From Actinomyces sp. HPA0247 (lineage in GTDB: Bacteria; Actinomycetota; Actinomycetes; Actinomycetales; Actinomycetaceae), in the NCBI GenBank assembly GCA_000411415.1, contig KE150450.1, positions 1-45,044 on the forward strand: DNA of 45,044 nt, in the 5' to 3' direction. Of this stretch, positions 7,085-42,657 are shown piece by piece. The first letter of the stretch is position 1. Every line of letters begins with the position of its first letter. Both the position numbers and the translations under genes were made by a program. The notes beneath the pieces are model-generated. The model had not been told where the DNA came from, searched no databases, and saw only the letters and a program-made list of their open reading frames with translations.

Positions 7085-7304
7085 ATCTGTCCTTTCGTTG
7101 GGCGCCCGGCCACAGGCGGTCAGGCTGTCCTCACGCGCTCATCCTAAGTAACTTTGTACACCTGCCGGAAGGGGGAGGCCACAACGTGGACACGTGCGCA
7201 TGATCAGGGACGAGGCCGGGGCTCCTTCTGGGGAAAGCACGCACGAGGCCGGGGTGCGTTCGCCGAATCCTGTCCGCGAAGCAGTATGCACAGTCCCAAC
7301 ACGA
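7085..7304. other. Intergenic region upstream of the malic enzyme gene
   Basis: Gap between the gatB terminator and the malic enzyme start, presumably holding the malic enzyme promoter, which I cannot place confidently. It holds two same-direction copies of the recurrent 12-mer ACGAGGCCGGGG (7210-7221 and 7243-7254, 33 bases apart). No convincing gene is present. Confidence 0.5.
7210..7254 (+). repeat. Two direct copies of the 12-mer ACGAGGCCGGGG
   Basis: Exact copies at 7210-7221 and 7243-7254, in the same orientation and 33 bases apart. They belong to the window-wide motif family. Unlike other copies, neither forms a hairpin with a nearby complementary copy. Confidence 0.8.
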
Positions 7305-7343
7305 CGAAAGGGGCCGGGATCGCATCGATCCCGGCCCCTTTCG
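7305..7343 (-). terminator. Terminator of the gatCAB operon
   Basis: Perfect 16-base inverted repeat (CGAAAGGGGCCGGGAT and its complement) around a 7-base loop, lying 17 bases after the gatB stop. On the minus strand the second arm ends in a CCCTTTCG run, consistent with an intrinsic terminator. Confidence 0.85.
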
Positions 7344-7359
7344 CTCGCGAGGATGAACC

Positions 7360-8856
7360 TCAGGCGCCGACCATCTCCATGATCAGCTCGCGCACGCGGG
7401 CGGCGTCAGCCTGCCCGCGGGTGGCCTTCATGACCGCACCGACGAGGGCGCCGGCCGCCTGGACCTTGCCGCCCTTGATCTTCTCGACGATGTCGGGGTG
7501 GGCGTCCAGGGCCTCCTGGACGGCCGCCGTCAGGGCACCGTCGTCGGAGACAACCTCGAGGCCTCGGGCCTCGACGACCTGCGTCGGGTCACCTTCGCCC
7601 GCGAGGACGCCCTCGAGGGCCTGACGCGCCAGCTTGTCGTTGATGCGGCCAGAGTCGATGAGACCCTGGAGCTCAGCGACCTGAGCGGGGCTGACCCCGG
7701 CCTCGTCCAGGGAAACCTCGCGTTCCTTGGCGCGACGCGAGATCTCGCCCATCCACCACTTGCGGGCGGAGGCGGGATCGCAGCCAGCGGCAACCGTGGC
7801 CTCGATGAGCTCCAGGGCGCCAGCGTTGATGACGTCGCGCATCTCCATGTCCGCGTAGCCCCATTCGGAGCGCAGGCGGCGGCGCTTGGCGACGGGCAGC
7901 TCGGGCAGCGAGGCGCGCAGCTCCTCCACCCACGCACGATCCGGGCGGATCGGGACCAGGTCGGGCTCGGGGAAGTAGCGGTAGTCCTCGGAATCCGACT
8001 TCTCACGACCGGACGACGTTGAGCCGTCCTCCTCGTGGTAGTGGCGGGTCTCCTGCAGGATCGTGCCGCCATCGGCCAGGATCTGGGCCTGACGCTGCAT
8101 CTCGTAGCGCACGGCCGAGGCGATGCCACGGAAGGAGTTCACGTTCTTCGTCTCGGTACGCGTCCCCAGGGGCGACTCGGGCGTCGGGCGCAGCGACACG
8201 TTGATGTCGGCGCGCACGTTGCCGCGCTCCATGCGGGCCTCGGACACGTCGAGGGCACGGAAGATGTCGCGCAGGGCCTGCACGTAGGCGGCAGCCACCT
8301 CGGGCGCACGCTCGCCAGCGCCCTCGATCGGGCGGGTTACGATCTCCACGAGCGGGACGCCCGCACGGTTGTAGTCCACGAGCGAGTGGTCCGCGCCCTG
8401 GATACGGCCGTCAGCGCCACCGATGTGCGTGTTCTTGCCCGCATCCTCCTCCATGTGCGCGCGCTCAATCTGCACGCGGAACATGGTGCCGTCCTCGAGC
8501 TCGACGTCCACGTAGCCGTCGTGAGCGATCGGCTCGTCGGACTGAGAGGTCTGGAAGGCCTTCGTCAGGTCCGGGTAGAAGTAGTTCTTACGGGCGAAAC
8601 GGCAGTACTCCGCGATCTCGCAGTTCAGGGCCAGGCCGATCTTGATGGCGTACTCGACGGCCTTGTGGTTGACGACCGGCAGGGAGCCGGGCAGACCCAG
8701 CGACACGGGGGTCACGTAGGTGTTCGGGTCGCCACCAAAGGCGTTGGGGGCGGCGTCGAACATCTTGGTCTTGGTGCCCAGCTCGACGTGCACCTCAATG
8801 CCGAGAACCGGGTCGAAGCGGCGGGCCGCCTCGTCGTAATCCATGAGCTCAGTCAT
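7360..8856 (-). CDS. gatB: Asp-tRNA(Asn)/Glu-tRNA(Gln) amidotransferase subunit B
   Basis: GatB binds the mischarged tRNA and phosphorylates the Glu or Asp side chain so that ammonia from GatA can convert it to Gln or Asn. The 498-residue protein begins with the diagnostic GIEVHVELGTKTKMFD and contains the family block YYPD-type KNYFYPDLTKAFQTSQ. A C-terminal GatB/YqeY helical domain covers the last 150 residues. I chose ATG at 8856, seven bases after GGAGG and overlapping the gatA stop by one base; GTG at 8859 is the alternative. It is the last gene of gatC-gatA-gatB, transcribed leftward to the terminator at 7305. Confidence 0.95.
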   Translation of the reverse strand: MTELMDYDEAARRFDPVLGIEVHVELGTKTKMFDAAPNAFGGDPNTYVTPVSLGLPGSLPVVNHKAVEYAIKIGLALNCEIAEYCRFARKNYFYPDLTKAFQTSQSDEPIAHDGYVDVELEDGTMFRVQIERAHMEEDAGKNTHIGGADGRIQGADHSLVDYNRAGVPLVEIVTRPIEGAGERAPEVAAAYVQALRDIFRALDVSEARMERGNVRADINVSLRPTPESPLGTRTETKNVNSFRGIASAVRYEMQRQAQILADGGTILQETRHYHEEDGSTSSGREKSDSEDYRYFPEPDLVPIRPDRAWVEELRASLPELPVAKRRRLRSEWGYADMEMRDVINAGALELIEATVAAGCDPASARKWWMGEISRRAKEREVSLDEAGVSPAQVAELQGLIDSGRINDKLARQALEGVLAGEGDPTQVVEARGLEVVSDDGALTAAVQEALDAHPDIVEKIKGGKVQAAGALVGAVMKATRGQADAARVRELIMEMVGA

Positions 8857-41047: not shown

Positions 41048-41052
41048 CCCCG

Positions 41053-42555
41053 CTATCGAGTGACAGGCTCGATCTCGACGGGGGCCACGTCCATCTCAGC
41101 GAGCGGCACCGTCCGATCCTTGCGCGCCACGTGGTAGCCCCACCAAACCACACCAAAGAGCGGCAGACCGATGTAGGAGGAGGCAACCTCCCAGACCTGC
41201 CCGTGAAGCACGGCTTCATAGTTCTGCCCGGCCATCACCACCAGGCACATGATGAACGCAACGATGGGACCAGCCGGGAAGAACGGCGAACGATACGGCA
41301 GGTCTTCGAGGCGGTACCCCTGCAGCAGGTAGGCACGCCGGAAGCGAATATGACTGACCGCAATGCCCAGCCACATGATGATGCCGGAAATACCGACGAT
41401 GTTCACCAGCCAGATGTAGGCGTCCTCAAAAACCAGCTGCGTGAGGAAGCCGCACGCCGCCGTCACCGTGGTCACCGCCATCGCGTAGCCGGGCACGCCG
41501 CCCTTCGTGACGCGCGCAAAGATCGCGGGAGCCTGACGCTTCAGGGCCATCGAATGCAGCATACGGGAGGCCGCATACAGGCCCGAATTACCGGCCGATA
41601 AAATCGACGTCAGGATGACCGCGTTCATGACGGCTGCCGCCGCGCCAACCCCCATGCGCGCGAACACGAGCGTGAACGGCGACTGAGCAATATTGTTCGC
41701 CGAGTCATCGGCCGCACTCAGCAGGCTCGGATCCGTGTACGGCAGCAGCGTGCCGATCACCGCGATCGCACCAATGTAGAAGAACATGATGCGCCAAAAC
41801 ACCGTGCGGATCGAACGCGGCACGTCCCTGCGCGGGTTCTCAGACTCGCCCGCGGCCACGCCCACCAGCTCGGTGCCCTGGAAGGAGAAGCCCGCAATCA
41901 TGAAGACCGCGATGACGCCGACGAAACCGTTGTGGAAGGGCGCGTCCCCGGTCGTCCAGTTCGACAGGCCCGGCGAATTCTGGCCCATCACGCCGGCGAT
42001 CATGAGCACACCCGACAGGACAAACACAATAACGATGACGACCTTGATGGCGGCCAGCCAGAACTCGGCCTCACCGTAGACTCTCGCCGACAGCGCGTTC
42101 AGCCCGACGACGACGCCGAGGAAGCCCACCGCCCAGATCCACGACGGCACGGACGGGAACCAGTAGGCCATCACCAAGCCCGAGGCCACCAAGTCCGCGG
42201 CCACCGTCACCGCCCAGTTAAACCAGTAGTTCCACCCCATGGCGAAGCCGAAGGACGGGGAAATGAACTTCGTGGCGAAGGTCTGGAAGGAGCCCGCGAC
42301 CGGCTGATGCGCACTCATCTCGCCCAGGGACTGCATCAGGAGCAGCACCATGAGGCCGATTGCCGCGTAGGCGACGAGTGCACCGCCCGGACCGGCGTTC
42401 GCGACCGTCGCACCGGAGGCCAGGAACAGGCCCGTGCCGATCGCGCCGCCGATAGCGATCATCTGCATGTGGCGCGACGCCAAGCCGCGCTTGAGCGCCG
42501 TATTGGAGCGCTCCTGCACATCGGTGGCGATGTCGTCGGGAGTGGGGGTTTCCAT
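41053..42555 (-). CDS. LysP-like amino acid permease
   Basis: A 500-residue APC-superfamily permease with 12 membrane helices. The first contains AIGGAIGTGLFLASGATVANAGPGGAL, the amino-acid permease substrate-site signature, and the long loop after helix 5-6 carries GFSFQGTELVGVAAGESENPRRDVPRSIRTVFWRI, matching the LysP/GABA-permease family. Lysine or another basic amino acid is the likely substrate, but specificity is not proven by sequence. ATG at 42555 is preferred because GAGGAA lies eight bases upstream; longer in-frame starts (to 42639) lack sites. Confidence 0.88.
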   Translation of the reverse strand: METPTPDDIATDVQERSNTALKRGLASRHMQMIAIGGAIGTGLFLASGATVANAGPGGALVAYAAIGLMVLLLMQSLGEMSAHQPVAGSFQTFATKFISPSFGFAMGWNYWFNWAVTVAADLVASGLVMAYWFPSVPSWIWAVGFLGVVVGLNALSARVYGEAEFWLAAIKVVIVIVFVLSGVLMIAGVMGQNSPGLSNWTTGDAPFHNGFVGVIAVFMIAGFSFQGTELVGVAAGESENPRRDVPRSIRTVFWRIMFFYIGAIAVIGTLLPYTDPSLLSAADDSANNIAQSPFTLVFARMGVGAAAAVMNAVILTSILSAGNSGLYAASRMLHSMALKRQAPAIFARVTKGGVPGYAMAVTTVTAACGFLTQLVFEDAYIWLVNIVGISGIIMWLGIAVSHIRFRRAYLLQGYRLEDLPYRSPFFPAGPIVAFIMCLVVMAGQNYEAVLHGQVWEVASSYIGLPLFGVVWWGYHVARKDRTVPLAEMDVAPVEIEPVTR

Positions 42556-42645
42556 GACTGGGTTCCTCATCTGTCGATCGTCGAGTCCCATCTTAGCCCC
42601 ACAAATGCTTGTGTCGAACTTGGTAGATTCTTTTCTCATTCTTTA

Positions 42646-42657
42646 ACGAGGTCGGGG
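42646..42657 (+). repeat. Variant ACGAGGTCGGGG motif upstream of the permease
   Basis: One base different from the recurrent 12-mer, in the divergent gap between the permease and the MgtC-like gene; preceded by CATTCTTTA, similar to the CATT context of other copies. Confidence 0.65.

Follow-up and report, generated by a model that had tools for sequence, protein, structure and literature searches.

What makes a single 12-base word, ACGAGGCCGGGG, recur on both strands of a bacterial chromosome? The question is raised by a stretch of 45,044 nucleotides from Actinomyces sp. HPA0247 (contig KE150450.1, forward strand), here called the window, which holds 14 exact copies of this word. The host is within the Schaalia odontolytica group and shares 81% identity in ComEC with S. 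odontolytica FDAARGOS_732 (G006 among the congener genomes); for much of this genus the GTDB name is Pauljensenia. Abundance, strand balance, genomic context, a fixed core, dialects and conservation of the word can be read from the sequence, as can comEA, comEC and two tad loci, and on this basis the word is probably a DNA uptake sequence (DUS) in its local dialect. It would be the first candidate uptake sequence outside the Neisseriaceae and Pasteurellaceae.

The 12-mer in the window and in the host genome

The window (63.4% GC, close to the 64% given in a first-pass annotation) covers the opening 45 kb of a contig of 1.29 Mb, in a genome of three contigs, and has an rRNA operon at its own start. 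For its 14 exact copies, comparison with shuffled sequence gives an expectation of 0.01 (100 dinucleotide shuffles: mean 0.01, largest 1). The first-pass annotation had listed 13 copies, all with the right position and strand, and had overlooked the one at 7695-7706 on the minus strand. Sites with at most two mismatches to ACGAGGCCGGGG number 44 (11.7 expected); among the seven variants named earlier, those at 13570, 37391, 39662, 39684 and 42646 were placed correctly, and the other two start at 24863 and 26715. Throughout the 2.43-Mb host genome the word occurs 426 times, far above the level set by base composition, and the reversed word, used as a control, occurs 0 + 1 times.

These copies are divided almost evenly, with 216 forward and 210 reverse (binomial p 0.81), and the absence of strand bias seen in the window thus extends to the whole genome. 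An overrepresented, short and non-palindromic word could act as a polar signal for recombination or segregation, in the way of Chi or KOPS; the even split, seen again in a related spelling in the congener G031 (500 vs 501) and within one 445-kb stretch of the host genome (43 vs 36, counted by stretch and not by mapped replichore), leaves a polar signal scarcely tenable.

Position relative to genes and anatomy of the word

Context, flanks, variants and spacing were counted in a 445-kb sample of the host genome containing 79 copies, with a gene model from a home-made gene caller in which gaps were filled by long open reading frames (ORFs). Intergenic sequence, 11% of this sample, holds 41 of the copies; 37 are genic and one lies on an edge. 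The word is about eightfold denser between genes (0.80 per kb) than within them (0.095 per kb), with 1.6 per kb in convergent gaps, 0.8 in tandem gaps and 0.25 in divergent gaps. A codon or composition bias, by which the word would be DNA for common residues such as Asp-Glu-Ala-Gly, does hold for the 8-mer CGAGGCCG (191 of 408 copies in one frame) and for the congeners G010, G016, G019 and G021, in which the core of the word is not enriched between genes, and it is retained for these cases. For the 12-mer it is refuted by the intergenic density, and the genic copies also run on both strands and in all six phases, unevenly used; such a bias has almost no chance of being the explanation.

The extended form of the word is roughly CATTG-ACGAGGCCGGGG-C, with preferences for C, A, T or G, G or C, and G before it and for C after it. 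The CATT and C flanks described in the first-pass annotation are therefore a tendency, with G at position -1 in 61% of copies, A at -4 in 47% and C as the next base in 73%. Single-base variants of ACGAGGCCGGGG total 4 at the places of CGAGG and 104 at the seven other places (25, 6, 15, 19, 27, 9 and 3, each variant being expected less than once), which indicates that the middle of the word is fixed while its ends tolerate change.

An inverted partner lies within 45 bp of 27 of the 79 copies, about 3 being expected, and some copies indeed sit in terminator arms and many alone, as had been noted for the window. Predicted genes contain 6 of the 27 paired copies and 31 of the 52 single ones. In the window, three inverted pairs fold at z-scores of -6.1 to -7.5 and the direct pair at 7210/7243 does not. 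The window copies are listed here with their surroundings; the gene calls are rough, the caller having set a minus-strand ORF at 14822, a place for which Pfam favours a plus-strand FtsK/SpoIIIE.

7210..7221, plus strand: exact copy between the malic enzyme gene and gatB
7243..7254, plus strand: exact copy, direct repeat of the 7210 copy, without a hairpin on folding
7695..7706, minus strand: exact copy inside gatB
11943..11954, minus strand: exact copy where a PLD-domain gene and ligA converge, between their ends, sharing one base with the ligA stop
14822..14833, plus strand: exact copy inside an FtsK/SpoIIIE-type ORF (14265-17495, plus strand)
17960..17971, minus strand: exact copy, intergenic
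19812..19823, plus strand: exact copy inside predicted gene 19568-20050
22643..22654, minus strand: exact copy inside predicted gene 22015-23304
24845..24856, minus strand: exact copy forming the left arm of an intergenic hairpin (folding z-score -6.8)
24863..24874, plus strand: two-mismatch partner, right arm of the 24845 hairpin
25566..25577, plus strand: exact copy inside predicted gene 25192-25992
29834..29845, plus strand: exact copy directly upstream of a type I restriction R-subunit gene
34154..34165, minus strand: exact copy, intergenic
37391..37402, minus strand: one-mismatch partner, left arm of a hairpin
37413..37424, plus strand: exact copy, right arm of a hairpin after a GH66 gene (folding z-score -7.5)
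39662..39695: hairpin of two one-mismatch copies, 39662-39673 (minus strand) and 39684-39695 (plus strand) (folding z-score -6.1)
41036..41047, minus strand: exact copy, intergenic, just past the end of 41053-42555 (minus strand)
42646..42657, plus strand: one-mismatch copy

An ORF at 37445-39676 (743 aa, without a Pfam family) lies between the near-identical hairpins at 37382-37432 and 39653-39700.

The paired copies, their folding and the peak of density between convergent genes are what a terminator-derived repeat family would produce, the word being a favoured stem of intrinsic terminators. Copies are not confined to terminator hairpins, however: the 52 unpaired ones include the 31 in predicted genes, on both strands and in several frames. 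A stem moreover requires pairing and not a fixed word, yet CGAGG is fixed. Proposed in the first-pass annotation as one of three possibilities, a terminator family is thus very unlikely to be the origin of the word, and terminator stems are better seen as a by-product, since most copies are unpaired.

Conservation and dialects among relatives

Orthologous sites were compared in eleven sets of the same dialect group (the host itself, G001, G005, G006, G013, G018, G020, G022, G023, Schaalia sp. ORNL0103 and A. bouchesdurhonensis); G026, likewise labelled Schaalia sp. ORNL0103, was left out as the same species. Judged by coordinate fit, A. bouchesdurhonensis is probably the same genome as G001, and the stretches compared from them do not overlap. 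The word is kept exactly in 116 of 169 site-by-genome comparisons. Averaged by site over 67 sites, orthologous copies are identical in 77% of cases for the word and in 39% for nearby GC-rich 12-mers, with the word scoring higher than its local controls at 56 sites and lower at 10; an interval of 0.30-0.47 for this difference is optimistic because comparisons run in both directions and the genomes have common ancestry. Among orthologous copies, none of 34 single changes falls in CGAGG.

ACGAGGCCGGGG itself has a narrow distribution. Among 35 congener genomes, the host included, 12 contain 119 to 426 copies and 23 contain 0 to 45. Outside the genus, the 13-mer ACGAGGCCGGGGC, longer by one base, has at most 10 copies in each of 178 genomes of the family, and in a phylum sample of 395 other genomes ACGAGGCCGGGG reaches at most 36 copies, the maximum being in a 7.9-Mb genome.

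Other spellings were sought by k-mer counts and flanks in 51-100 kb from each of 24 congeners. They include ACGAGGGCGGGG, ACGAGGACGAG and ACGAGGG(C/T)GAC, often with AT-rich bases before them. G031 contains 1001 copies of ACGAGGGCGGGG (control 1), compared with 7 in the host genome, and G024 contains 383 copies of RACGAGGACGAG (control 2), compared with 24 in the host; in other genomes the pattern of RACGAGGACGAG is likely to be partly Asp-Glu coding. According to the ComEC tree, the dialects around the fixed inner core follow phylogeny, and some congeners are without a clear dialect. Among the congeners, G007 is S. georgiae, G033 is S. suimastitidis and G004 is Actinomyces culturomici. Copies of the loose form ATNNACGAGGNCG number 94-871 in 27 of the 35 congeners and 44-72 in seven others, G028 having 6; its reversed control has at most 8. 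Among the 178 family genomes outside the genus it exceeds 75 copies in four only (200, 141, 92 and 78). In the large genus g239, probably Actinomyces, it reaches up to 54 copies, which are taken as coding background because many of the matches read ATCGACGAGG.

In the 24 samples, the top 9-mer was not denser between genes in G002, G003, G009, G010, G012, G016, G019 and G021, nor, within the 80 kb sampled, in G013 and G018, despite their 254 and 119 copies of ACGAGGCCGGGG. For these 8-10 congeners no dialect is therefore claimed from the samples, and an initial assignment of CGAGGCCG or CGAGGGCG as a dialect mark in every sampled congener was withdrawn wherever the top 9-mer lacks intergenic enrichment. 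In 20-kb loci of other genera a top 8-mer is CGACGGCG, with 20 copies against 3.1 expected in A. bovis (L258), 25 against 4.7 in A. urogenitalis (L265) and 22 against 6.8 in Bowdeniella (L248); this excess is either coding bias or another dialect.

The main rival explanation, which takes up the chromosome-structuring site of the first-pass annotation, is a chromosome-wide binding site of a nucleoid-organising or regulatory protein that co-evolves with it. Hundreds of copies, conservation at orthologous sites, random-like spacing and a higher density between genes would all suit such a site. Sets of hundreds of copies have changed their spelling between congeners, however, which is hard to picture without a process that spreads the word. 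A protein-binding site of this kind is thus kept as an unlikely alternative.

Competence genes and tad loci

Of the three possibilities raised in the first-pass annotation, an uptake-type signal in a competent organism is supported as the best fit, and the host genome carries comEA, comEC and two tad loci. The genes comEA (SLBB plus helix-hairpin-helix), comEC and holA adjoin as an operon. comEC was found in 33 of the 35 congeners and in 32 of 32 congener genomes of good quality. A strict comEA motif was matched in 9 of 30 loci (G000, G005, G006, G013, G018, G020, G022, G023 and G026), the motif being narrow and the loci cut, so that this fraction does not indicate absence from the others. In A. 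bouchesdurhonensis (L198), ComEA matches occur at 5889-6266 and 9129-9869, one whole and one partial, 3 kb apart, next to a ComEC match that breaks off at residue 323.

Two tad-type ATPases of the host exceed the Pfam cut-off. The second locus (B; contig 1, ~129.2-133.6 kb) encodes, in this order, an ATPase, a pair of T2SSF proteins, a short Flp-like protein, two TadE-type proteins and a TadG-like protein; the TadE-type proteins match TadE below the Pfam cut-off, and the Flp-like and TadG-like assignments come from a reading of the sequence. One protein of this locus, starting ERGDASVEFLGILVVLVIPVLYIVLAV, resembles at its start the TadF of Micrococcus luteus as quoted in PMC6370729. Transformation of M. 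luteus requires both of its tad clusters (PMC4322843), one of which the second host locus resembles. In the TadF-like protein of G024 (L325), the genome with the ACGAGGACGAG dialect, the loop that in most others contains a Cys-x-x-Cys stretch has an insertion, which is a candidate for specificity.

Across the genus, 27 genomes have two PF00437 matches above 100 bits, and the lower match was B-type by BLAST in six of six genomes checked (G002, G004, G015, G024, G031 and G033). A second tad ATPase was not found in G010, G016, G019, G021 and G028, in which the single one is A-type by BLAST; these genomes hold 72, 58, 62, 62 and 6 copies of ATNNACGAGGNCG. The 28 genomes counted with B hold 44-871 copies (Mann-Whitney p 0.001, uncorrected for kinship; B in G030 is counted from the profile span alone, and G008, 70% complete, and G014, in 310 contigs, were excluded). 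Between genes, ACGAGG relative to its 59 anagrams gives ratios of 0-1.6 in the five single-ATPase congeners and 1.4-4.8 in 21 others. Outside the genus, among 16 family genomes checked, B is present in both g271 genomes and in none of g266. A link between the motif and the second tad locus, based on two independent events, is suggestive within the genus; outside it the link breaks down. A nucleoid or regulatory protein would give no reason for this link, nor for the inverted pairs at terminators.

Proposed mechanism and points on either side

The high copy number, the balance between strands, the pairs at terminators, the fixed core and the dialects make up, taken together, the signature of DUS and of the uptake signal sequence (USS), and we know of no other class of site that combines all of these. 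Specific uptake, a receptor and molecular drive are what we infer from this signature. A Tad/Flp-type pilus would carry a minor pilin that binds double-stranded DNA containing the word in preference to other DNA; by gene order, the TadE/TadF-like or TadG-like protein of the second tad operon is a receptor candidate. The pilus would hand the DNA to ComEA, ComEC would let a single strand through to the cytoplasm, and homologous recombination would install it. As DNA bearing the word would enter more often, the word would spread by molecular drive, persist where it does little harm (between genes, in terminator stems and in tolerable codon frames) and drift into species dialects outside the invariant CGAGG core.

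Several observations weigh against a DUS-type reading or its link to the second tad locus. The ComEC match in A. bouchesdurhonensis, probably G001 with its 267 copies, covers only residues 7-323 of 528, and comEC may therefore be truncated in a motif-rich genome; the match may stop at 323 because the gene is cut, was lost recently or was misassembled. This possible truncation is already within the doubt attached to the reading, whose probability is therefore kept. G004 mixes three spellings (185 copies of ACGAGGCCGGGG, 190 of ACGAGGGCGGGG and 150 of RACGAGGACGAG), and G002, G012 and G009 are without a clear dialect. The five single-ATPase congeners form two lineages in the ComEC tree, which has long branches and omits A. 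bouchesdurhonensis, for which no suitable frame was found. Copy numbers with and without B overlap (44-871 vs 6-72). In g253, outside the genus, 10 of 11 genomes have B (one with two stops), and nine of the 11 have only 12-57 copies. Conversely, B was not found in the motif-rich G543 (200 copies, 280 contigs) and G581 (92 copies), nor a second ATPase in the 310 contigs of G014, which has 108 copies of ACGAGGGCGGGG. Finally, the spacing of copies is random-like, with a coefficient of variation of 0.95 compared with 0.98 at random, and even spacing was rejected on this ground. A depletion of the word in mobile DNA is only weakly indicated: the longest copy-free gap of the 445 kb (391.5-425.3 kb of contig 1) contains a relaxase gene and also holds rpoB, with a null median of 30 kb for the largest gap; p is 0.012 for a copy-free region of 25 kb that was chosen after the fact; and the second gap includes a run of small genes taken from layout alone as ribosomal protein genes.

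Within these regions, contig 1 at ~405-424 kb (L059) encodes a MobA/VirD2-type relaxase and many proteins without a Pfam family, with zero copies, near rpoB, and is probably a mobile element. Another motif-poor region (L051) encodes an integrase-core (rve) protein at 745-1425 and a TNT-domain protein at 10980-11702. The four-genome single-ATPase lineage (L087, L096, L108 and L204) stands on a very long ComEC branch (2.86 changes per column), as would be seen under a different or weaker constraint.

Comparison with known systems

The DUS of Neisseriaceae is likewise a word of about 12 bases, present on both strands in hundreds to a thousand copies. It too forms inverted pairs at terminators between genes, and its dialects follow phylogeny around a fixed inner core (CTG, compared with CGAGG in the Schaalia word) (PMC3630211). 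The words themselves are unrelated, and the Schaalia group belongs to another phylum with one cell membrane, in which uptake is a proposal; it has Tad/Flp loci, whereas Neisseriaceae use a type IVa pilus with ComP. The USS of Pasteurellaceae shares the overrepresentation of a short word, the fixed core (GCGG) and the existence of dialects, here two (PMC12616744). Again the words are unrelated, and the flank preference in Schaalia extends over only a few bases. Micrococcus luteus likewise has comEA/comEC together with two tad clusters, of which one encodes TadE/TadF-like minor pilins (PMC4322843 and PMC6370729). The term 'uptake sequence' is absent from the main texts of PMC4322843 and PMC8467076, and no sequence preference was found described there.

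In a search of open-access listings and abstracts, with subscription papers and preprints outside it, no report of an uptake sequence for Actinomycetota was found. The system is likely a third, independently evolved form of self-recognising DNA uptake, in Gram-positive Actinomycetaceae, with a Tad/Flp pilus and dialects as barriers to gene exchange. If true, such a third case in another phylum would mean that labelling of this kind evolves repeatedly and needs no outer membrane, and the receptor question would become comparable across three origins. The dialects would predict which species can exchange DNA, and adding the right dialect to DNA could ease the genetics of Schaalia, a group that includes hosts of Saccharibacteria.

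Other repeats in the host genome

A second word, GGATAGGTTA, was counted 24 times in 445 kb, where 0.1 would be expected. Its copies are clustered at about 111.0, 112.4, 138.9, 224.9 and 430.8 kb of contig 1 and are spaced by about 19 and 30 bp; similar k-mers occur in G005 and G020. The 16 copies of AATTGCATGC in the same 445 kb are arranged in eight pairs, with a distance of 91-93 bp in seven and of 69 bp in the remaining one, and look like a small repeated element; one pair lies in the window at 24988 and 25080.

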